Assembly (NCBI RefSeq): GCF_003991135.1
Contig: NZ_CP016379.1
Span: forward strand, 1,798,001-1,862,000
Source: Anoxybacter fermentans
GTDB lineage: Bacteria; Bacillota; Halanaerobiia; DY22613
Reading direction: 5' to 3'
DNA: 64,000 nucleotides
In this document: positions 7,320 to 23,363 of the stretch, in pieces
How positions within the stretch are numbered: position 1 is the first letter of the stretch
Layout: each line of letters opens with the position of its first letter
The notes under the pieces: generated by a model
Databases searched by the model: none
What the model was told of the DNA's origin: nothing
The model's input: the letters and a program-made list of their open reading frames with translations, nothing else
Translations under genes and position numbers: made by a program

Positions 7320-8600
7320 CTAAAGTAAGGAAACACCCTTTTCATCCAATCTCCCCATTTTTCTTAAAAGCCTCTTTTCCCGGTGTTCAAGCTCATCCAT
7401 CAGTTCCTTAAATCTGTTCCTGGTATATAACCGGCGCTGTTTTAACAACACCTGGCGCGCATCCCGGGCCATCTTTAGAGCCAGCCTATAATCTTTACTG
7501 TAATGCTCATAATATTTAGCCAGTTCAATATAGGGAAATAGACGCAGATTATTCTTAGAGTTGATAAAACTCTGCCAGATAGAACAGGCTTCTTCCATCC
7601 GCCCTAACCTTTTATAAAGAAATGAAAGTCGTTTCAATATCTCCTGTTTTAAATGGGCAGAAATCTCCTGGTTAAGACAAATAGAATAACACTTTACTGC
7701 CTGATTATACTGGCCCAAATCTTCATAAACTTTTCCTGCAGAAAAAAGATCTTCCGGCTCATCCAATACCTCATAAGGTCTAAGATAGGCCTGAATTAAG
7801 TTGGTCATAAGAGTAACCAGAGACAGAATATCCCAGTGATTATGTTGAAAAACCGGTATAAGAATCCGTCCATCCTTCTCCTCCAGATACCGAAAGAAGA
7901 GCTCTGGTACTAATGCTCCCGGAATATCATTTGTCCGGTAAAATCCTAAAACTGCTTCTTCTAACGAACCCAGATTACAGCTCATAAGCCTATTTTTATA
8001 ATATCGTCGGGCTGGATGAAGTAAGTCCACATGAACATGAGAAAAATTCCCCTTCATCCGGTGATAAATAAACCGCCCCTCAAGCAAAGGCCAATCAAAA
8101 GATTTGCCATTAAAAGTGACCAGATGGCTAAATTCCTGCAATTTACTGTATAAAGCATCCAGCATAGCAAACTCCTGATGATAATCTTCCATCATATACT
8201 GGCGCAGAATAAATTCATCCTCTTTAAAATAGCCCATACCTACTAAAAAAGCAAAGGTTCCCGTTCCTCCTGCCAAACCGGTAGTCTCAGTATCCACAAA
8301 GACAAGGCTTTCAATATTTTTAGGGCAGACCAACTCCTGATCCTTTAAAATTCCACAAAGAGCTGAGAGATCTTCTCTTAAAAGTGCTCCAAGGTAAGTC
8401 CGGCCGTGAAAGTGGTTCAATGGATAACGATATTCTACAAGAAAATACTCACCAAATTCAGACTGGATCATCTTACCGGGTAAAAGCCGGGTTAGATGAT
8501 GCTTTTTATGGAACGGTTCATATACTGGCTCATTCCTGGCTTTCTTTTTACCCTCATTTTCTTTTTTATGATGCAGTCTAAGTTTGGCTTTCAGATCCAC
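7320..8600 (-). CDS. mrfB: MrfB/YprB-type DEDDh exonuclease with TPR region
   Basis: A 426-residue protein. The RNase H-like exonuclease core shows motif I DTETTGLAGG (D103, E105), motif II TFNGKSFDWPLL (D169), an Asp in HVDLLHPARRYY (D192), and HNHWDILSL with a histidine and final aspartate (H253-D257). From about residue 290 there are helical TPR-like repeats. In Bacillus subtilis YprB (MrfB) is a metal-dependent exonuclease that acts with the helicase MrfA to repair mitomycin C adducts. The gene overlaps the end of the mrfA homologue by 23 bases. The start is a GTG at 8600 with AGGGGG about 10 bases upstream. The role in DNA repair is inferred from the family and gene order. Confidence 0.9.
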   Translation of the reverse strand: MDLKAKLRLHHKKENEGKKKARNEPVYEPFHKKHHLTRLLPGKMIQSEFGEYFLVEYRYPLNHFHGRTYLGALLREDLSALCGILKDQELVCPKNIESLVFVDTETTGLAGGTGTFAFLVGMGYFKEDEFILRQYMMEDYHQEFAMLDALYSKLQEFSHLVTFNGKSFDWPLLEGRFIYHRMKGNFSHVHVDLLHPARRYYKNRLMSCNLGSLEEAVLGFYRTNDIPGALVPELFFRYLEEKDGRILIPVFQHNHWDILSLVTLMTNLIQAYLRPYEVLDEPEDLFSAGKVYEDLGQYNQAVKCYSICLNQEISAHLKQEILKRLSFLYKRLGRMEEACSIWQSFINSKNNLRLFPYIELAKYYEHYSKDYRLALKMARDARQVLLKQRRLYTRNRFKELMDELEHREKRLLRKMGRLDEKGVSLL

Positions 8601-13840: not shown

Positions 13841-13917
13841 TGGTGGGGCTTACAGGAATCGAACCTGTGACCTACAGATTAGGAATCTGTCGCTCTATCC
13901 TACTGAGCTAAAGCCCC
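13841..13917 (-). tRNA. tRNA-Arg (anticodon CCT)
   Basis: Full cloverleaf with acceptor GGGGCTT/AAGCCCC, a D arm with AGCTCAGTAGGATAGAGC, anticodon stem ACAGA/TCTGT with loop TTCCTAA, T loop GTTCGATTC, and an encoded CCA. It reads AGG codons. Confidence 0.97.
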
Positions 13918-14060: not shown

Positions 14061-14807
14061 TTAACCTTGAACTTGCAACCAGAGGTCAATAATAGTAGGA
14101 GATAGTGCCCAAACTTTTAAACGAACATATTGCAAAAAAGTACTTACAACTAATGTCCCTGCTTCATTATTATTAATAGTCAATTCTCCACTATCCTCAA
14201 CCCAAATCTGGCTATCAGGACTTATCTCCATTTGACAAAAAACTTTGCTAGAATTTCCTTTATTATATATAAAAAAAGTTGCCGTTGTGTATTTAGATAT
14301 GTCATAACTCTTAGAATATTGTGGTTCTATCCCCACTTGAATATTTTTTTCGGTAAACGATATAAACTTATTTTCACAAATAATCGTTGAAGTTAAACAT
14401 CTATTTAACTCTTCATAACTTACCAACTTTACCAACCACCCTTGTATACTGACACAAATTTTTAACTCAAGCTGAACCTTATTTATTAATACAAATTTTA
14501 TAACATATGCTTTTCCAATTAATCTTAATTCAATCTCATGAGAAAATGTTTCCATTGTTAGTATACAAGAAAAATTTAATTTTCGTGAGTAAACTTTTTT
14601 CTTCCCTTCTGTAAAATAAAATATAGAAACTTCAATTGTACCTGAAATTATAATAAAGCCATTTCCTATTTTATTATCAATTTCCATAACCTTTGCTTCA
14701 ACATTTTTTATAAACACTGCTGACTCCGGTAAGTCAACATAAGCAACAAAAAAATGTTTATGTGAAATAGCATTGCTATAGGTTTTTAGAAATAAATTAG
14801 ATTCCAT
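14061..14807 (-). CDS. SPOCS-like plus DUF6385-like domain protein
   Basis: A 248-residue protein of unknown function. Residues 30-125 have the pattern of the SPOCS (DUF3794) beta domain seen in spore-coat proteins such as SipL, with segments like VEAKVMEIDNKIGNGFIIIS and an alternating hydrophobic strand pattern. Residues 160-248 (QMEISPDSQIWVEDSGE followed by STFLQYVRLKVW) match the C-terminus of the protein at 22402-22995, where the equivalent is EVSPDNQMWATDVG and ASFLKYTRISYK. It is the last gene of the glycosyltransferase operon, 17 bases after the GT-MT-GT gene, with a GGGGAGG site. There is no signal peptide or membrane span. I infer a surface or spore-associated structural role; no terminator is evident after it. 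Confidence 0.75.
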   Translation of the reverse strand: MESNLFLKTYSNAISHKHFFVAYVDLPESAVFIKNVEAKVMEIDNKIGNGFIIISGTIEVSIFYFTEGKKKVYSRKLNFSCILTMETFSHEIELRLIGKAYVIKFVLINKVQLELKICVSIQGWLVKLVSYEELNRCLTSTIICENKFISFTEKNIQVGIEPQYSKSYDISKYTTATFFIYNKGNSSKVFCQMEISPDSQIWVEDSGELTINNNEAGTLVVSTFLQYVRLKVWALSPTIIDLWLQVQG

Positions 14808-14824
14808 GTTTATTCCTCCCCACT

Positions 14825-17086
14825 TTAATAGTCAAGAGGAATATAATAGCGTTCTGGGAAATTATTTTGACCTATAAGAACTGGTAAATTTACTTTTTTT
14901 TGATCATCCAATTCCAAATCAATATTCCACTTTATTTTAAATTTTAACCAATTCTCAGCCAGTAATTTTTCATATTCCCGTAAATTCTTCTTAAAAGTCA
15001 TACTTCCAAAGTGATGCACATATACATCTCTTGCCACAACCATTTTAAAACCAGCCATTGCTGCTCGTAAACAAAAATCATCATCTTCAAAGTTCCCCAA
15101 ACCAAATCTTTCATCAAAACCACCAATTTTATTAATAACTTCTCTTTTAACCAGCATACAAAGACCTGCCAGGCGATAAGTTAATAAATAATTACCTTCA
15201 TTCTGCCAATAAAACTCACGGGCAAATATCTGAAATTGATAAAGATCATCATAATAAGCCGTAACCTGCTGAGATCCTCCAACATAATTAGAGCAAGCAC
15301 CAACAATACCAACATTTTCTTCATCTTCCAAATGGTCAATTAAATGTCCTAACCAGCCATCTCCAACGATAACATCGTTGTTTAGAAATACTAAATATTT
15401 CCCTTGTGCTTTTACAATTCCTTGATTACATGCTTTAGGATATCCTTCATTTTGCTCATTTCTGATTACTATTACACTTTCTAGCGTTTTCAAATATTCA
15501 ACTGTTCCATCTGTTGAACCATTATCAATAATGATCAGTTCAAATGGTTCTAAAGTATGGGTCAAAATACTATTGATGCATAGTTGAGTCATCTGAAGAT
15601 TATTGTGAACGGGTATAATAATTGAAGTCAATTTTCGTTCTTTAGCAACTCGCAATTGATTCGCCTTTTTAGCTTGCAAAATTAGTTGAACTGTATGAAG
15701 CTCCTGTATGGTTTTTTGATCTAAATTTCCCCATTCAAAATTTTTACCGATTTCTCGATTGAATGTTGAATCCGGTAACGTCAAGGGGTTTAAAGTCATA
15801 TCTTGCACACCAAAAGTTTGTATAATTTTATATCCAAGTTTCTTAAGCATCCTTTTTATCTCTTTTATTGTAAAAAATCGTAAATGAGTGGAATCCAAAA
15901 TTCCAGCTTCTTCGTATCGCCATTCACCCTGCAAAAGTTTATCTATAATTCTTAAATTCCTTATATTTGGTACGCTAATAATCATAAGACCATCTTTAGC
16001 TAAATAACGATACAATTTAAGCAAGACCTTCCATGGATCCCGTAAATGTTCAAGAACATCAGCAAGAATAATACAATCAAAATATTCATACTGATAGGGT
16101 AACTTTATTGTCTCTATATTCCCTACCAATACTTCATCCAGCAACTTACGTGCTACCTGACCTGCCACACTATCCAATTCGACTCCATAAACCCGGGCCG
16201 TCGGTATTTTATTCTTAATACCTCGCCCCAAATGTCCATGACCACACCCAACATCCAAAACTCTTTTTACCGTCTCAGGTATTAATTCAATGATTTCAGG
16301 CCTACTGTACTGGTAATAAATAGTATCTTTCACGAAACTGGATGAACTAGCCTCTGTGCGTTCTTCCCACCTGGCTAATATCATTCCCTCTTCAGAGGTT
16401 AAGTGATCATAATAACCCTCTGCTGCTCGCTCCGGATCATATTGACAATACCATCGGTATTTCTTTTTTCTCCGTTCGGGTTCCAAATATCCATAATGTT
16501 TCACTTTTACATCAAGCCTGCGGGGATAATAGCGTAAATTGGCAGGAATACTACCACAATGAAAATTTGAACCATGTTTTGTTGGTAAAAAACGTAGATA
16601 TTTAATATTTTGACCTCGTAAAGTGAACAAACGCGGTTGCCAGAAGTTACTATATATCCCTGGTTCAACACGATAATATTCTGGGTCATTCCAGAAATAC
16701 AAAAAATGGAAATAAAATACGGTAAACTGTGGTTCTAAAGGATCAAGAAGATGAATTTCATTAACTATAGTTGTAGGAGCTATATCCTCTAAAACTTCAT
16801 CACCATCAAGAGCAAGAACCCAATCAGGCTCATGTTTCAACACCCAATTCAATAAACGATTTTTATCCCTGACCTCATCAACAGTAACTTCATCTTGACG
16901 GTGGTATTCTACTAAATCGGGAAAAGAAAGACATATATCAGGAGTTGCATCCGTAGACCCATCATCTAAAATCACAATTCGATCCGCTATAGGAGCTAAA
17001 CTCAAAATGGATTGTTGTAGCCACTTTTCCTCATTTTTAACCCGCATCATACCCACAAGTTTAAATTCTTTATCAATTTTGTTCAT
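14825..17086 (-). CDS. Three-domain glycosyltransferase-methyltransferase-glycosyltransferase
   Basis: A 753-residue cytoplasmic protein. Residues 10-215 are a GT2 glycosyltransferase with ILDDGSTDA and LALDGDEV (the DXD-type metal site). Residues 274-385 are a class I SAM methyltransferase with VLDVGCGHGHLG and LADVLEHL. Residues 487-735 are a second GT2 domain with IIIDNGSTDGT and LNNDV. The ATG at 17086 has GGGGGTGAG upstream; a longer frame to 17137 lacks a ribosome site. It overlaps the preceding glycosyltransferase gene by 14 bases. Such fusions build and methylate glycans on surface polymers or proteins. The donor sugars and acceptor are not readable from sequence. Confidence 0.9.
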   Translation of the reverse strand: MNKIDKEFKLVGMMRVKNEEKWLQQSILSLAPIADRIVILDDGSTDATPDICLSFPDLVEYHRQDEVTVDEVRDKNRLLNWVLKHEPDWVLALDGDEVLEDIAPTTIVNEIHLLDPLEPQFTVFYFHFLYFWNDPEYYRVEPGIYSNFWQPRLFTLRGQNIKYLRFLPTKHGSNFHCGSIPANLRYYPRRLDVKVKHYGYLEPERRKKKYRWYCQYDPERAAEGYYDHLTSEEGMILARWEERTEASSSSFVKDTIYYQYSRPEIIELIPETVKRVLDVGCGHGHLGRGIKNKIPTARVYGVELDSVAGQVARKLLDEVLVGNIETIKLPYQYEYFDCIILADVLEHLRDPWKVLLKLYRYLAKDGLMIISVPNIRNLRIIDKLLQGEWRYEEAGILDSTHLRFFTIKEIKRMLKKLGYKIIQTFGVQDMTLNPLTLPDSTFNREIGKNFEWGNLDQKTIQELHTVQLILQAKKANQLRVAKERKLTSIIIPVHNNLQMTQLCINSILTHTLEPFELIIIDNGSTDGTVEYLKTLESVIVIRNEQNEGYPKACNQGIVKAQGKYLVFLNNDVIVGDGWLGHLIDHLEDEENVGIVGACSNYVGGSQQVTAYYDDLYQFQIFAREFYWQNEGNYLLTYRLAGLCMLVKREVINKIGGFDERFGLGNFEDDDFCLRAAMAGFKMVVARDVYVHHFGSMTFKKNLREYEKLLAENWLKFKIKWNIDLELDDQKKVNLPVLIGQNNFPERYYIPLDY

Positions 17087-18302
17087 AAGTCTCACCCCCT
17101 GACAACCATGTTTTATACAAATCAAAGACTGGATCATAATTAGAATTGATAGAACTAAAATCCAGATAGTTCAAAATCCTATTTTTTTGACTCTTAAAAA
17201 TTCGTAAAATTCCTTCATAAGCTGATTGATATTGGTGATTATTTTGATAGGCTAAACAATAAAACTCCACTGCTTTTTCTTCATTACCTTCTTTTTCAAA
17301 AGTCCTTCCCAAAGCCCAATAAGTTCGGAAAGATTCTAAACCATTAATCTGGATATATCTCCTTGGGTCACTCCTGATTTCGAGACACTTTTGATAGGCT
17401 GATCTGGCTATTTCTAATTGACCTTGTAAATAGTGCAACTCCCCTTTTATAAACCACAAAGCTGTAAAATCAGGAAAAATCTTTAACCCTCTTTCAACAG
17501 TCATTAACCCTTTTTTATATTCTCTCAGGTGTAAATATGAAACAGCCATTTTATATATTAAATCCGCTCCAAAACTAAGTGTCTTAAGATCAACTTTCAA
17601 AGCTTTACGATAGTAATCTAATGCTAGCTGATATTGTTGCTGCTGAAAATACTCAGTACCACAAGCATAATTTAAAAAAGGGTCATGAGGATTATTCTCT
17701 AATTCCCGTTTTAATATATTTAAATTTCGTTCATTTTTTCTTTTTTGATGAATGATCTTCTCAACATAACCAAAATGTTCGATATAAATATCTGTTGTTT
17801 CTATCCTGGCTTTCGGATTTTTTTTCAAAATAATATGTGACATTTCTTCATGAAGTGATAATTTAAAGCGATATTCTGGTCTGTTGCGAAAAATTCTACA
17901 TGCTGAATCAAAAACATAATTATAGCCTATATCTTTTCCATAATAGCTTTTAATTTTTACAATAATCCCTTCCGTTTTACGCAAAATGGCCCGATATAAT
18001 AAAGGTATTAACCTGTTCTTAAATTCTAAAGGAAAGCGCTCATCAGCATCCAGAATCAACACCCATTGGCCTCTTGCCTGTTCTAAAGAGCGATTTCTTG
18101 CCTTACCAAAATGATTTTGCCATATCTCATGATATACTTTCGCTCCATAATTTAACGCTATTTTTACCGTATTATCCGTCGATCCAGTATCAACAACTAT
18201 AATTTCATCTGCCAGATCTGATATACTTTCAAGACATCCTGGTAAAAGATCCGCTTCATTCTTTACAATCATGCATACTGATAAAAATGGATGATTTATC
18301 AA
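17073..18302 (-). CDS. GT2 glycosyltransferase with TPR repeats (409 aa)
   Basis: The N-terminal GT2 domain (about 5-200) starts LSVCMIVKNEADLLPGCLES and has IIVVDTGSTDNT, ILDADERFP (DXD-like) and a conserved IEHFGYVEK. Tetratricopeptide repeats follow from about residue 205 (DPFLNYACGTEYFQQQQYQL). The start is a TTG at 18302 with a strong GGAGGTG site 8 bases upstream. It overlaps the preceding gene by 47 bases and the next by 14, so translation is probably coupled. GT2-TPR proteins include peptide and protein glycosyltransferases such as SunS, but the acceptor here is unknown. The natural candidates are the DUF6385-type proteins of the same operon. Confidence 0.88.
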   Translation of the reverse strand: MINHPFLSVCMIVKNEADLLPGCLESISDLADEIIVVDTGSTDNTVKIALNYGAKVYHEIWQNHFGKARNRSLEQARGQWVLILDADERFPLEFKNRLIPLLYRAILRKTEGIIVKIKSYYGKDIGYNYVFDSACRIFRNRPEYRFKLSLHEEMSHIILKKNPKARIETTDIYIEHFGYVEKIIHQKRKNERNLNILKRELENNPHDPFLNYACGTEYFQQQQYQLALDYYRKALKVDLKTLSFGADLIYKMAVSYLHLREYKKGLMTVERGLKIFPDFTALWFIKGELHYLQGQLEIARSAYQKCLEIRSDPRRYIQINGLESFRTYWALGRTFEKEGNEEKAVEFYCLAYQNNHQYQSAYEGILRIFKSQKNRILNYLDFSSINSNYDPVFDLYKTWLSGGETYEQN

Positions 18303-20259
18303 GTTTATTCACCTCCCGCTTAGCCAGGGTGATTATTTTATTAAATTTTGTATTTTCAGGAAATTTTATTAACGCTTTTTGAGAATAATCACAAACATTG
18401 CGAAGAGCAATTTTTAAATAAGTTATCCAGGTGTCCAGTGATGCATCTTTTTTCGTAAGTGCTTGATTTATAAACTGAAACGCTGTAACATTATCATTAC
18501 CAATTGAAGCTATTTCTGCTAAACATTTTAGCCCTTCAGAATCTAAATTATCTTCATTTATACTCAAGAATTGTTCAATCGCGTCCTGATAATACTTTTT
18601 TTTATATAAAAGTTTTCCTAACTTTAATTTTGCTTCTTTAAGAGGAATTTGTTGATAAATTTTTAGTATTGCATCTATTCCTGTTCGAAAACCAATTGAA
18701 ATCCAATTCTTAGTCATAACGTACAATACATGTGATATATTTTTTAAATAATTAATATCTTTTGCTTCTTTTATTAAATCCTTAGAACCTTCAAGCAATA
18801 AATATACATCCTTGAGAGGATATGGAAAACTTTCAGGTATTTTGACTAAAAAATTTCTTAATTGATCCCATTTTCCCTGATACCAATAAAGTTGAAACTT
18901 AAGAAGTAGAACCTCCTCTGTCTGTTCAACATTTGATAAAGATTCTTCACATTTTTTTAACTCGTTTTTGTTCCAAAATGCTTTACATAAAAGGAAACCT
19001 TTGTTTCTACTTTGTATAAGAGCCTTTTCGCTCTGCAAAATTTGTAAGACAAAATCAGGAAAATAATCTATGGTCATATATAAAACCTGCTCCACTTCTT
19101 TAGATTCTAAAAAGTTTAATTTATCTTCAAAATATTTTTGAAAATCCTCTTCAGAATAGTAACGAATAAATAATTGAATTATTTTTTTCAAAATTTCATA
19201 ATTAGATGGGTTACTTTTTAAACCTATATAATAGAATTCAATAGCCTGGGTAATTTTTAATTTTACCTCATAGCACTCTCCTAACCGAAGGGCAGCCCGA
19301 AAAGAACCTACACCAACTTCTGAAACATAATGCTCTGGAGCCTCTCCAAGTTCCAAACATTTTTTAAAGTATTCAATCGCTTGCTCATAGAAACCTGAAT
19401 TAAAATAGATTTCTCCTAAAAAGAAGTAAAGATCTGTGTAATCAGGAAATTCCTCGCATCCATCCTTCAAAACTTTTATACTTCCGTAAAAATCTCCTGC
19501 ATCTATCAGACTCATTCCTAAACGTAAAATTAAGTACGGGTAATAGCTAATGTTGGGATTCAATAACTCAAGAGCAGTCTTAAAATGCCAGGATGCAATT
19601 TGAAATTCACCTAAACGATGATATTCAATGCCTAGATTAAATCGCATAAAGGGATCTTTTGGATTATTCTTTAATTCTAACTGTAATAGTTTTACGTTCC
19701 TCTCAATTTTAGCTTTTTCAGCAACAACATCAGCAGAATATCCGTAATGAATAACCTCTAACCTGGAAGTTCCGATCGCTGAAAGTGGTTGAGTTTGTAA
19801 TATTTGAGGCAAAATTTGTTCATGAATCCTACCCTTGTAGTAATACCCAGTTTTTCGTTTAAAAAATCTTAAGGCTAAATTTCGAATATAATGATGTTTC
19901 CCACCATCTCCACAGTTTACAATCTGAACAAAATAAGCCTCTTTATCAGTGGCCTGGATTAAACTTTGCCAATATTTCTTATCAACCATTTTTAACTCTT
20001 CATCAGCATCCAGAAAAAAAATCCAGCTACCTTGAGCTTGATTTATAGCAAAATTACGGGCTGCAGAAAAATCCTCAATCCAGGGGAAAAAAAACACTTT
20101 AGCTTTAAACTCTTTGGCAATTTTGACAGTATTATCTGTAGAACCAGTATCTACAACAATTATTTCATCTGCCAAATGTTGTATACTGGTGAGACAACGC
20201 TTTAAATTTTTTTCTTCGTTTTTAACTATAAGGCAAACACTTACATTCGGTGTAAACAT
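18256..20259 (-). CDS. GT2 glycosyltransferase with TPR repeats (667 aa)
   Basis: Residues 5-215 form a GT2 domain with VSVCLIVKNEEKNLKRCLTS, VDTGSTDNT, the metal-site region FLDADEELK and RIHEQILP. Residues 220-380 are clear TPR repeats (for example YTDLYFFLGEIYFNSGFYEQ). The C-terminal 280 residues are helical, lysine-rich and AT-codon-biased, probably degenerate TPRs. The ATG at 20259 follows GGTGGGGAG. It is a paralogue of the flanking 409- and 689-residue proteins, pointing to tandem duplication. Cytoplasmic sugar transfer is inferred; substrate unknown. Confidence 0.88.
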   Translation of the reverse strand: MFTPNVSVCLIVKNEEKNLKRCLTSIQHLADEIIVVDTGSTDNTVKIAKEFKAKVFFFPWIEDFSAARNFAINQAQGSWIFFLDADEELKMVDKKYWQSLIQATDKEAYFVQIVNCGDGGKHHYIRNLALRFFKRKTGYYYKGRIHEQILPQILQTQPLSAIGTSRLEVIHYGYSADVVAEKAKIERNVKLLQLELKNNPKDPFMRFNLGIEYHRLGEFQIASWHFKTALELLNPNISYYPYLILRLGMSLIDAGDFYGSIKVLKDGCEEFPDYTDLYFFLGEIYFNSGFYEQAIEYFKKCLELGEAPEHYVSEVGVGSFRAALRLGECYEVKLKITQAIEFYYIGLKSNPSNYEILKKIIQLFIRYYSEEDFQKYFEDKLNFLESKEVEQVLYMTIDYFPDFVLQILQSEKALIQSRNKGFLLCKAFWNKNELKKCEESLSNVEQTEEVLLLKFQLYWYQGKWDQLRNFLVKIPESFPYPLKDVYLLLEGSKDLIKEAKDINYLKNISHVLYVMTKNWISIGFRTGIDAILKIYQQIPLKEAKLKLGKLLYKKKYYQDAIEQFLSINEDNLDSEGLKCLAEIASIGNDNVTAFQFINQALTKKDASLDTWITYLKIALRNVCDYSQKALIKFPENTKFNKIITLAKREVNKLDKSSIFISMHDCKE

Positions 20260-20277
20260 TATATCTCCCCACCTTTT

Positions 20278-22347
20278 TTAGCCTAATTTTTTTAAACAAT
20301 ATTCAATGATTCTAAGCTCGTGTTCAAAATATTTTGCTTCAGGTGCAATTTTTAAAATTTGCCGGACTACTTTTTTCGACCTTTTTAAGGCCACTCTAAC
20401 AGCTGCCAGATGATACTCAATCATTCGATCATTTATGTTTAAAGCATGACAATATAAATTTTCCGCTTCAGAAAGCAATCCCCGTTGTTCACAAATCTCA
20501 CCCAAATAGTAGTACACACGCTCATTTTGTACACCAAATTCTAAACTCTTTAATAACTCATCAGCAGCTTCATTAAAATACCCATATTTGAAATATAATT
20601 CTCCAATCAGATAATGCAGTTTCCATTGATCAAAATCTAACTCCAGTAATAACTTTGAGGATTTTTGAAATAACTCAAACCCCTTGTAACGTAAACACTT
20701 TTCCAATACATACATTAACTTTTCTATATATTCATCCAGGTTTTTAGAATACGTGGTAGTACTATCTTCTTTTACAAAGGACACCCAGTTTTGTACTTTT
20801 TCTAATAAAAAACGTTTAAGCCCACTTTGCTCTTTATCTAAAACCCACAGCTGATCAATACTGCGTAAAACTTTCTGCAATTTAACGTCCAACCGTTCTA
20901 AAAATTTTGGATTTAATTTGTTAATACTTTCCTGTGGGTTTTTCAGCCACTGAGCAAGACATAACTCCAGAACCAATGCATCCGGACTTTCTGGTTGGGA
21001 TAATATTTCTAAAAATTGATTGTATGCAGTATTACATAATCCCGCTCCCAGTAAAGATTTTGCATATAAAATTTTTAAATCCTTAGATAGTTCTTCAAAT
21101 GTCTTTAATCTTTCCAGGTAACTTAAAGCCAACTGATCTTCACCAAGGACTCCACAAAGGTCAGCCATAACGGCTAAACCATATTTTGATTCAAAATCAA
21201 ATTCTGTCTCCAAATATGCTACAACCTGGTTAATATTCTGATACTTTTTTTTAAGTAGCTTGACTAAAGGATATAAAGGTTCTATAAAAGAAGGTTCAAT
21301 ATGAACTGCTTCAACATAATTATTTATTGCTTGCTCATTTTCACAAAGACCATGATAGGCTCTTCCAAGACCGTAATGTGCAAGAAAAGTACCGGTTCCA
21401 GCAGTAGTGGTGTATTTGCTAGCCACTTCACCAAGAAGTAAACATTTCTGAAACTCTTTGATTGCTCTGGAATAATTTTTTAAATTTAAATAACACAATC
21501 CACTTAAATAAAAAAGATCCGTATAATCAGAATAATTTTTAATCTCTTTTTCAATAAAATCAAGTGCTTCCTGGTAATCTCCCAAATCAATTAAACATAA
21601 TGCAATATTTCTTACCAGTGTCGGACCAAAAGCATAACCTTTTTCTAAATGTTGATAACTCTTTTTTAACCATTCTAATGCTGCCTTTTTTTCACCTAAT
21701 TCATAATATGCTAATCCCAAATGATATTCTAAAAAAGAGTTGTTTTTATTCTGATTCAATTCTATTTGTAATAATTCAATATTCCTTTTAACTTTTTCTA
21801 CCCGATTCACATTACCTTCCATATAACCGTAGTGATAAATTTGTAAATCTGTCTTTAATATTTGTGCATTTGGTCGACTACTTAAAATAGATGGAAGAAT
21901 TTGTTCATGGATTCTTCCCATAAAGCGATAATCTTTACGGTTACGAAACAGTCGACAACTTTGATGCACAAGTCGTGAACTATCCAAAACTTTACCAGTA
22001 AAATTTACTATTTCAAAAAAATACCCCTCTATATCTGGAGCATTAAGTAGTTTTTTTATATTTTTTTGTGCTAAAGGTGATAGGGCTTCATCAGCATCCA
22101 AATACAGAATCCACTCTCCCTGTGCAGCAGCCAACCCCAAGTTTCTAGCCTGACTAAAATCATTATTCCAGGGATAAACTAATACTTTGGCGCCATGCTC
22201 TTTACCTATTTGAACAGTACGATCAGTCGAACCAGTGTCGATAATAATTATTTCATCCACTAAGCCCTTAACACTTTCTAAACATCTATGAAGATTTCTT
22301 TCTTCATTTCTAACGATCATACAAAGACTGATTTTAGGCTGCTTCAT
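20278..22347 (-). CDS. GT2 glycosyltransferase with TPR repeats (689 aa)
   Basis: The first glycosyltransferase of the operon. GT2 domain at about 3-210 with ISLCMIVRNEERNLHRCLES, IDTGSTDRT, LYLDADEALS and MGRIHEQILPS. TPR repeats follow at about 210-400 and again at 560-660. The ATG at 22347 has CAGGAGGG 7 bases upstream; the longer frame to 22395 starts inside a hairpin and is rejected. It lies 54 bases after the DUF6385 gene, across a GC-rich hairpin at 22374-22396. It is a paralogue of the two following genes. Role inferred as glycan transfer. Confidence 0.88.
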   Translation of the reverse strand: MKQPKISLCMIVRNEERNLHRCLESVKGLVDEIIIIDTGSTDRTVQIGKEHGAKVLVYPWNNDFSQARNLGLAAAQGEWILYLDADEALSPLAQKNIKKLLNAPDIEGYFFEIVNFTGKVLDSSRLVHQSCRLFRNRKDYRFMGRIHEQILPSILSSRPNAQILKTDLQIYHYGYMEGNVNRVEKVKRNIELLQIELNQNKNNSFLEYHLGLAYYELGEKKAALEWLKKSYQHLEKGYAFGPTLVRNIALCLIDLGDYQEALDFIEKEIKNYSDYTDLFYLSGLCYLNLKNYSRAIKEFQKCLLLGEVASKYTTTAGTGTFLAHYGLGRAYHGLCENEQAINNYVEAVHIEPSFIEPLYPLVKLLKKKYQNINQVVAYLETEFDFESKYGLAVMADLCGVLGEDQLALSYLERLKTFEELSKDLKILYAKSLLGAGLCNTAYNQFLEILSQPESPDALVLELCLAQWLKNPQESINKLNPKFLERLDVKLQKVLRSIDQLWVLDKEQSGLKRFLLEKVQNWVSFVKEDSTTTYSKNLDEYIEKLMYVLEKCLRYKGFELFQKSSKLLLELDFDQWKLHYLIGELYFKYGYFNEAADELLKSLEFGVQNERVYYYLGEICEQRGLLSEAENLYCHALNINDRMIEYHLAAVRVALKRSKKVVRQILKIAPEAKYFEHELRIIEYCLKKLG

Positions 22348-22373
22348 AAAATCCCTCCTGGTTATATAGTATG

Positions 22374-22396
22374 TATGGCCCCATAATGGGGCCATA
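22374..22396 (-). promoter_or_regulatory. Intercistronic GC-rich hairpin
   Basis: TATGGCCCC pairs exactly with GGGGCCATA around a five-base loop. On the minus strand it is not followed by a T run, so it is more likely an RNA-stability or processing site between the DUF6385 gene and the glycosyltransferases than a terminator. Confidence 0.55.
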
Positions 22397-22401
22397 ACTT
22401 T

Positions 22402-22995
22402 TTAAATTTGAGCCTGGAAAAATATGTCAAGTGTTGTCGATTGACCAGCAGTTGTAGATTTGTAGGATATTCTTGTGTATTTAAGAAAACTAGCAGGATA
22501 CAAAACCTCCATATCGCCAGCAGCAATGGTTCTTGGTCCAACATCAGTAGCCCACATTTGATTATCTGGACTCACTTCCAAAATAACATCGACGCTATTC
22601 GCATCACCAGTATTATATACCGCAAAAGAATACGTAGAATATTGAGAAGTATTACGTGATTGACTATTTGTATAAGCATCACCGGAAGCTAAATCTTTTT
22701 CAGTCAATTCTGTAAAATCTCTAGCAGTAAGATTGGTACGAATGTTTCCATCTGTATCAGTTTTAATTCTTTGAATATTAGTACCATCATAACCATATAT
22801 CAATATGCTATCACTATTAGCAGTCAGGTCACGAATCGCTACTGTTCCATCAATATTTACAGTAATTGCATCAGAAATACTCCGAATTTTCAAAAACCCA
22901 TCTTCATCAGTAGCAAGAGGTGCTGTATCCGTAGATCCATATATTTGAGTTTTTAATTTAGTAACATCCAAATTCCGAATATGATAATTAGGCAT
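22402..22995 (-). CDS. DUF6385-type protein, first gene of the glycosyltransferase operon
   Basis: A 197-residue acidic, Ser/Thr- and Asp-rich protein with no signal peptide or membrane span. The N-terminal half has repeating beta-type units ending in DTDGNI or DEDGFL patterns. The middle is rich in hydroxyl residues (YTNSQSRNTSQYSTYSF), a plausible glycosylation region. The C-terminal 80 residues form the DUF6385-like domain shared with the 14061-14807 protein. ATG at 22995 has AGAGGTG upstream. It leads an operon of four glycosyltransferase genes, which suggests it is their acceptor or part of the same surface layer. That is inference; the molecular function is unknown. Confidence 0.8.
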   Translation of the reverse strand: MPNYHIRNLDVTKLKTQIYGSTDTAPLATDEDGFLKIRSISDAITVNIDGTVAIRDLTANSDSILIYGYDGTNIQRIKTDTDGNIRTNLTARDFTELTEKDLASGDAYTNSQSRNTSQYSTYSFAVYNTGDANSVDVILEVSPDNQMWATDVGPRTIAAGDMEVLYPASFLKYTRISYKSTTAGQSTTLDIFFQAQI

Positions 22996-23044: not shown

Positions 23045-23072
23045 TAATATATGAATTTAATTTAGTCCGAGT
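23045..23072 (-). promoter_or_regulatory. Possible sporulation-sigma-like promoter of the DUF6385/glycosyltransferase operon
   Basis: On the minus strand CATATATTA (23045-23053) fits the -10 pattern CATANNNTA of mother-cell sigma factors, with AC 17 bases upstream. No good vegetative promoter was seen. The pattern is short and AT-rich, so chance is a real alternative. Confidence 0.25.
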
Positions 23073-23090
23073 GAAACAATTTATGATTAA

Positions 23091-23300
23091 ACTGCAAAAA
23101 GTTAATTTTTCGCTTTATAAAGAAATTTTTCGAATCATCTAAAACTCGATTTCCGCCGAAATAAGGCTTCCTAATCAAAGGACCCTCCTGGCCCTTGATT
23201 AGCTCATCACCTCCTGTGATGAGACCTTATTTCTTCGGAAACCTCGCTAAGATGATTTGGCGAAAAATTTCTATGCCGTTCAAAATTAGCTTTTTGCAGT
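23091..23300 (+). repeat. Dispersed palindromic element, copy R3
   Basis: Full forward copy from ACTGCAAAAAG to CTTTTTGCAGT. Both apical hairpins are intact (AGGACCCTCCTGGCCCTTG and TCATCACCTCCTGTGATGA). It lies between the methyltransferase terminator and the DUF6385 operon. Confidence 0.9.
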
Positions 23301-23363
23301 TTATAATATAAATTAATACATAATGTTATCCACATCCAGTGAAAAATACATTTTCCTAAACAT

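Follow-up and report, generated by a model that had tools for sequence, protein, structure and literature searches.

The outer surface of the spore governs adhesion, dispersal and recognition, and its proteins are mostly unknown outside Bacillus and Clostridioides difficile. In C. difficile, SgtA, which consists of a GT-A domain and four tetratricopeptide repeats (TPRs) and whose gene adjoins bclA3, attaches beta-O-linked N-acetylglucosamine (GlcNAc) to threonines in the BclA3 repeats (PMC7157674), and the bclA genes are under sigma-K control (PMC3789822). Listeria GmaR adds GlcNAc to flagellin, and its TPR part has been proposed to hold the substrate (PMC9638930). The subunits of endospore appendages (ENAs) are late products of the mother cell, with sigma-K control suggested (PMC12921279), and one clostridial F-ENA carries probable O-glycans on Ser/Thr (PMC11952670). 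Here we analyze a 64,000-nucleotide stretch of Anoxybacter fermentans DNA (NZ_CP016379.1, positions 1,798,001 to 1,862,000; 'the window'), in which a six-gene operon on the minus strand, read from 22995 to 14061, places four genes with glycosyltransferase family 2 (GT2) domains between two genes for proteins of the uncharacterized Pfam family DUF6385.

We consider this operon most likely, with a probability of roughly three in four, to be a mother-cell system under sigma-K control for the O-glycosylation of DUF6385 proteins of the spore surface, which may form an ENA-like fibre. A glycosylation system of the spore surface is suggested by the co-occurrence of DUF6385 with SpoIVA, the sigma-K-type promoters, the partner proteins with a SPOCS domain or a basic tail and no signal peptide, and the kinship of the enzymes with protein glycosyltransferases. 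A preliminary description had recognized an operon of four glycosyltransferases framed by two DUF6385 proteins, and all six open reading frames (ORFs) and their domains were confirmed. It had proposed a dedicated glycosylation system for a spore or cell-surface layer; the spore surface is supported, while the same evidence disfavours the cell-surface layer. Its remark that no such system is known has to be withdrawn, as C. difficile has a comparable one in SgtA, a GT2-type/TPR enzyme that glycosylates the spore protein BclA3 (PMC7157674).

Two classes of DUF6385 protein

The first gene of the operon (22402..22995, minus strand) encodes a 197-aa protein, which we call class A, and the last (14061..14807, minus strand) a 248-aa class B protein. 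As had been claimed, the two share a C-terminal domain: the DUF6385 profile PF19912 matches them with 113.5 and 80.9 bits, respectively (gathering score 26.8), and the family has no further copy in the whole genome. Structure prediction with AlphaFold2, which the preliminary description had suggested as a check, gives a confident beta-sandwich for the DUF6385 head (pLDDT 92-98) and a low-confidence neck. In class A, the neck is a Ser/Thr-rich beta region (residues 1-114) and the head spans residues 115-196; the protein contains no Cys.

To place these proteins in context, 398 genomes sampled from the phylum Bacillota were searched with PF19912, and 37 loci from these genomes were combined with 80 named loci, mostly from Paenibacillus but also from Cohnella, Fictibacillus, Desulforamulus, Carboxydothermus and Ruminiclostridium; 112 of the loci have DUF6385. 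Scans of collections used a narrow DUF6385 alignment, the wide one being too diverse. Across loci, class A proteins begin with the consensus MPN[FY].[VTSI]F[NQ]..P[DE] (MPNYHIRN in the window), followed by a repeat neck of highly variable length, one protein reaching 1172 aa. Ser and Thr make up on average 29% of class A necks and 21% of the neck in the window, compared with 11% for other ORFs in the examined loci, which bears out the earlier observation of a Ser/Thr-rich first protein. We propose that the gene 1 product is the surface subunit and the glycan acceptor.

All class B proteins end in DUF6385, and many add another N-terminal domain. This is SPOCS in the window, in a Halothermothrix metagenome-assembled genome (MAG) of the same family, taken to be Halothermotrichaceae (L070), and in a genome of the same class (L167), and CBM96 in several clostridial loci; class B proteins of Paenibacillaceae instead have a short tail in which Lys+Arg make up 26% and Cys residues number 3.7 on average. 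The SPOCS-like domain reported for the last protein scored at the borderline of Pfam (PF12673; 21.4 bits in one scan and 23.2/23.6 bits against a cut-off of 23.6 in another). We accept it because a profile of the three SPOCS-DUF6385 orthologues finds the multi-SPOCS proteins of the same genome with E = 8.5e-16 when run against a small set of sequences. The assignment rests on sequence profiles, since the SPOCS half had no clear match when the class B model was searched with Foldseek. The genome has 15 SPOCS matches in all, and C1:3270820-3278399 (L169) holds a tandem cluster of four multi-SPOCS proteins. We propose that the gene 6 product serves as an anchor in the spore coat. The window proteins lack a signal peptide and any transmembrane-like segment, which fits proteins that the mother cell synthesizes and places on the spore.

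Several further proteins of the examined loci recall these two classes. Flanking proteins of 177-201 aa in Paenibacillaceae and Fictibacillus (L073:7113-7694 and 7726-8259; L088:6865-7470; L094:16013-16549) belong to no Pfam family and start like class A (e.g. MPNYNVF) without carrying DUF6385; they are possible further surface subunits with the same N-terminal hook. A Gly-X-Y collagen region is absent from the window and was present in only one examined DUF6385 protein (L064:13760-15127, minus strand), where a short GPPGPP stretch just ahead of the domain recalls BclA and F-Anchor. Collagen-like (GPT/GAT) ORFs, three with sigma-K-type motifs, lie near DUF6385 genes (L049:15267-16610, L049:17970-18785, L050:18459-20000) and are probable BclA-like spore proteins. 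Finally, a whole-genome hit (L181, genome G066) is an F-Anchor-like, collagen-like DUF4183 protein whose highly basic, Cys-containing N-terminus resembles the basic tail of Paenibacillaceae class B proteins.

The glycosyltransferases and their arrangement

Three paralogous GT2-TPR enzymes, with the sizes given before, follow gene 1 on the minus strand: gene 2 (20278..22347, 689 aa), gene 3 (18256..20259, 667 aa) and gene 4 (17073..18302, 409 aa, TTG start). Each has a PF00535 (GT2) domain with a DxD motif (LDADE, within FLDADE in gene 3 and ILDADE in gene 4) and C-terminal TPRs by Pfam, and homologues at E <= 1e-8 are confined to the operon within this genome. Gene 5 (14825..17137, minus strand) encodes the expected GT2-methyltransferase-GT2 fusion of 770 aa, also confirmed by Pfam. 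The six genes overlap or lie close together as described, with spacings of -65 to +54 bp. For gene 2 we set the start at the ATG at 22347, which is preceded by an AGGAGG-type ribosome site and gives 689 aa; the mechanical 705-aa start was dropped, because it falls inside a hairpin.

The solved structure nearest to all three GT2-TPR enzymes is the GmaR catalytic domain (22ao; E 4e-41, 2e-39 and 3e-35), followed by SunS (7msp/7msn). With 85-105 bits against a cut-off of 350, the enzymes fall outside the SunS equivalog TIGR04195. By analogy with GmaR and SgtA, we infer that they are Ser/Thr glycosyltransferases with the class A neck as acceptor and GlcNAc as the most likely donor sugar. In gene 5, the methyltransferase matches 3cc8 (7e-44) and the second GT2 domain resembles chain-building enzymes; as both suit such a role, we propose that the fusion is a chain extender and methyl-capping enzyme.

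A hairpin with a perfect 10-bp stem (22374..22396, minus strand) separates gene 1 from gene 2 in the window, and this position is often marked in the same way elsewhere. In a set mostly from Paenibacillaceae, a hairpin of <= -10 kcal/mol follows class A, ahead of the first enzyme gene, in 56/68 cases, versus 202/570 other co-directional gaps and 73/162 gaps between GT2 genes. The difference extends to hairpins with a T-run (36/68 after class A, 38/570 in other gaps and 6/162 in GT2-GT2 gaps). This looks like partial termination that would keep the enzymes scarce relative to the structural protein. Since a T-run is missing on this strand in the window, the hairpin there may protect the upstream message rather than terminate it, and we propose that it is an attenuator or an mRNA-stability element favouring the structural gene.

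Distribution and link to sporulation

DUF6385 was found in 55 of the 398 genomes (about 14%), usually as two neighbouring genes. The co-occurrence check named in the preliminary description gave a GT2 enzyme of the operon's type within 12 kb at 101 of the 112 DUF6385 loci, and an unbroken run of at least three at 71; outside Paenibacillaceae, the corresponding figures are 30/41 and 17/41. In Paenibacillus the clusters are near-invariant, with DUF6385 proteins of ~165 and ~500 aa and three GT2-TPRs, while the exact six-gene order of the window recurs in the Halothermothrix MAG (L070/L168) and in L167. A quick tree of the GT2 enzymes shows position-specific clades within Paenibacillaceae, a clostridial group and the window trio; one-to-one orthology by position across lineages was discarded, correspondence between clades being only partial.

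SpoIVA is present in 53 of the 55 DUF6385 genomes, and the two without it are 80% and 75% complete. Among genomes at least 90% complete, SpoIVA occurs in 46/46 with DUF6385 versus 307/356 overall (P = 7e-4, uncorrected for phylogeny). The A. fermentans genome itself has SpoIVA and also encodes sigma-K, scoring above its cut-off.

A sigma-K-type promoter, AC-N17-CATATATTA (ACTCGGACTAAATTAAATTCATATATTA; 23045..23072, minus strand), lies 77 bp upstream of gene 1, with the motif running from 23072 to 23045, and L167 has its motif at -76. In C. difficile, sigma-K and sigma-E have a common -10 element and differ at -35 as AC versus ATA (PMC3789822), so we assign the AC/CATA-type match to sigma-K. 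Within 150 bp upstream of genes, the motif AC-N16/17-CATANNNTA was found at 15/59 non-Paenibacillaceae DUF6385 genes compared with 19/307 other genes of the same loci (P = 4e-5); shuffled upstream sequences contained a mean of 0.4 full motifs against these 15. Counted by locus, 15/35 have it, whereas random 150-bp windows have it in 0.9%, and every motif at a DUF6385 gene sits 47-85 bp upstream of the start. The comparison is conservative, since several motif-bearing controls themselves resemble spore-surface genes (collagen-like proteins).

The sigma-K-type site lies just outside a near-perfect palindrome of ~217 bp (23085-23305, minus strand; terminal inverted repeat AACTGCAAAAAG), which sits between an upstream methyltransferase gene and the operon and resembles a miniature inverted-repeat transposable element. 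At least 40 genomic copies have 91-94% identity (40 scored of 687 candidates), and the palindrome was therefore dropped as a candidate regulatory element. Downstream, a tRNA gene (13844-13917, minus strand) separates the operon from a gene for a methyl-accepting chemotaxis-type protein.

A proposed spore-surface system weighed against its rivals

Based on these data we can present a rough proposal, in which we infer the timing, location, anchoring and any fibre formation. Late in sporulation, mother-cell sigma-K would turn the operon on, and class A would be produced in excess over the enzymes, since the hairpin separates its gene from theirs. In the mother-cell cytoplasm, the GT2-TPR enzymes would hold class A by their TPR parts and O-link sugars to Ser/Thr of the neck, and the gene 5 fusion would lengthen and methyl-cap the glycan. 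Class B, anchored in the spore coat through SPOCS, would bind class A subunits by its DUF6385 head, so that these decorate the spore surface or project from it, perhaps as a fibre linked from head to N-terminal hook. To a stronger form of this proposal we give somewhat less than even odds: that DUF6385 proteins build endospore fibres of a new and widespread type that is independent of the S-, L- and F-ENAs, in which class A forms a head-to-hook polymer with a densely O-glycosylated, variable neck, glycosylated in the cytoplasm before assembly by a three-to-four-enzyme assembly line and docked by class B with interchangeable anchors (SPOCS, CBM96 or a basic tail).

Several observations weigh against a sigma-K-controlled glycosylation system of the spore surface. 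At ~27% of the non-Paenibacillaceae loci there is no GT2 enzyme within 12 kb, so DUF6385 can work without these enzymes. Only 3 of 61 near relatives have DUF6385, although SpoIVA occurs in most of the genomes sampled from the class; the system is thus patchily distributed and dispensable. For Paenibacillaceae, enrichment was seen for the -10 element (15/49 versus 14/404) but not for the complete sigma-K motif, and the hairpin of the window is strong but has no T-run. The genome and motif counts are uncorrected for phylogeny, and our literature search found no paper naming DUF6385.

The DUF6385 pair could also be a spore structure next to enzymes that modify other coat proteins or a spore polysaccharide. 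Several loci with DUF6385 pairs and no GT2 enzymes would suit this, as would the window neck, only moderately Ser/Thr-rich at 21%. However, class A necks across lineages are strongly Ser/Thr-rich, at 29% on average, and in many loci the enzyme genes come immediately after that for class A; we think it unlikely that the targets lie elsewhere. We regard it as slightly less likely still that DUF6385 is a vegetative surface layer or polysaccharide-associated adhesin, with GT2 genes that make an ordinary capsule or cell-wall glycan. GT2 domains are indeed common in polysaccharide clusters, and some partner proteins carry the carbohydrate-binding family CBM96; yet the window proteins have no export signal or membrane-spanning segment, the solved structures closest to the GT2-TPRs are those of enzymes that act on proteins, and the sigma-K-type promoters, the SPOCS partner and the restriction of DUF6385 to SpoIVA-carrying genomes among near-complete assemblies all point to the spore.

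The structural matches raise a third alternative, a phage-tail or secreted beta-sandwich system. The best Foldseek matches of DUF6385 in the PDB are PirA (7fcn, E 1e-5) and PBSX XepA (6i56), which could be taken as kinship, but jelly-roll folds are widespread and structural resemblance by itself says little. DUF6385 relatives were absent from 50,697 phage records and from IMG/VR contigs; we rejected a phage origin on these grounds and hold the whole alternative to be very improbable. DUF6385 profile matches in PDB sequences, mainly to designed repeat proteins over short stretches, were taken as chance. The ENA subunits Ena3A, Ena2A and Ena1B (8pdz, 9i0y, 7a02) rank 7-11 (E 1.7e-4 to 4.3e-4), with a TM-score to target of only 0.51-0.57, and other jelly rolls score higher. 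A direct hhalign comparison of DUF6385 with ENA was insignificant (probability 0.8%, E 0.066). Because jelly rolls are common and the sequence comparison is insignificant, we do not claim homology to ENAs.

If DUF6385 proteins do form a glycosylated spore surface, this gives a proposed function and a dedicated glycosylation pathway to an uncharacterized family, and predicts a common surface module in Paenibacillus, Cohnella, Fictibacillus, Desulforamulus and the relatives of Halothermothrix. The module would share with S/L-ENAs (PF13157) and F-ENAs (DUF4183) mother-cell proteins with a beta-sandwich or jelly-roll head. F-ENAs, like DUF6385 proteins, combine a short N-terminal peptide that is conserved, a neck of variable length, a beta head and an anchor with the same head (PMC11952670); the MPN[FY] start of class A is similar in kind to the F-ENA hook MP-psi-psi-$-P-psi, with a different motif. 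Membership in either group was rejected: neither the genome nor the window proteins contain PF13157 or DUF4183, and the Cys-containing N-terminal connector of S-ENAs is absent from the Cys-free class A. In the F-ENA paper (PMC11952670), ENA loci are not described as having GT2-TPR arrays such as those of DUF6385 loci.

On the coat side, class B resembles SipL and other SPOCS coat proteins, and the genome has its own multi-SPOCS cluster, but unlike SipL, class B has a single SPOCS domain fused to DUF6385 and no LysM match in the Pfam scan. The enzymes share with GmaR and SunS-type proteins a GT2 domain followed by TPR or other helical repeats. GmaR modifies flagellin and doubles as an antirepressor; the target of SunS is a bacteriocin, modified at a Cys. 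The closest precedent is SgtA/BclA3, in which a cytoplasmic GT-A enzyme with C-terminal TPRs likewise stands beside a Thr-rich spore-surface protein, a likeness drawn from the published architecture rather than from direct sequence comparison. What is new relative to that precedent is the structural and acceptor family, with DUF6385 as predicted acceptor in place of the collagen-like BclA; the multi-enzyme set, with three paralogous GT2-TPRs and a GT2-methyltransferase-GT2 fusion in place of a single SgtA; a second, anchor-like DUF6385 partner; and the breadth of a system spread widely through the Bacillota.

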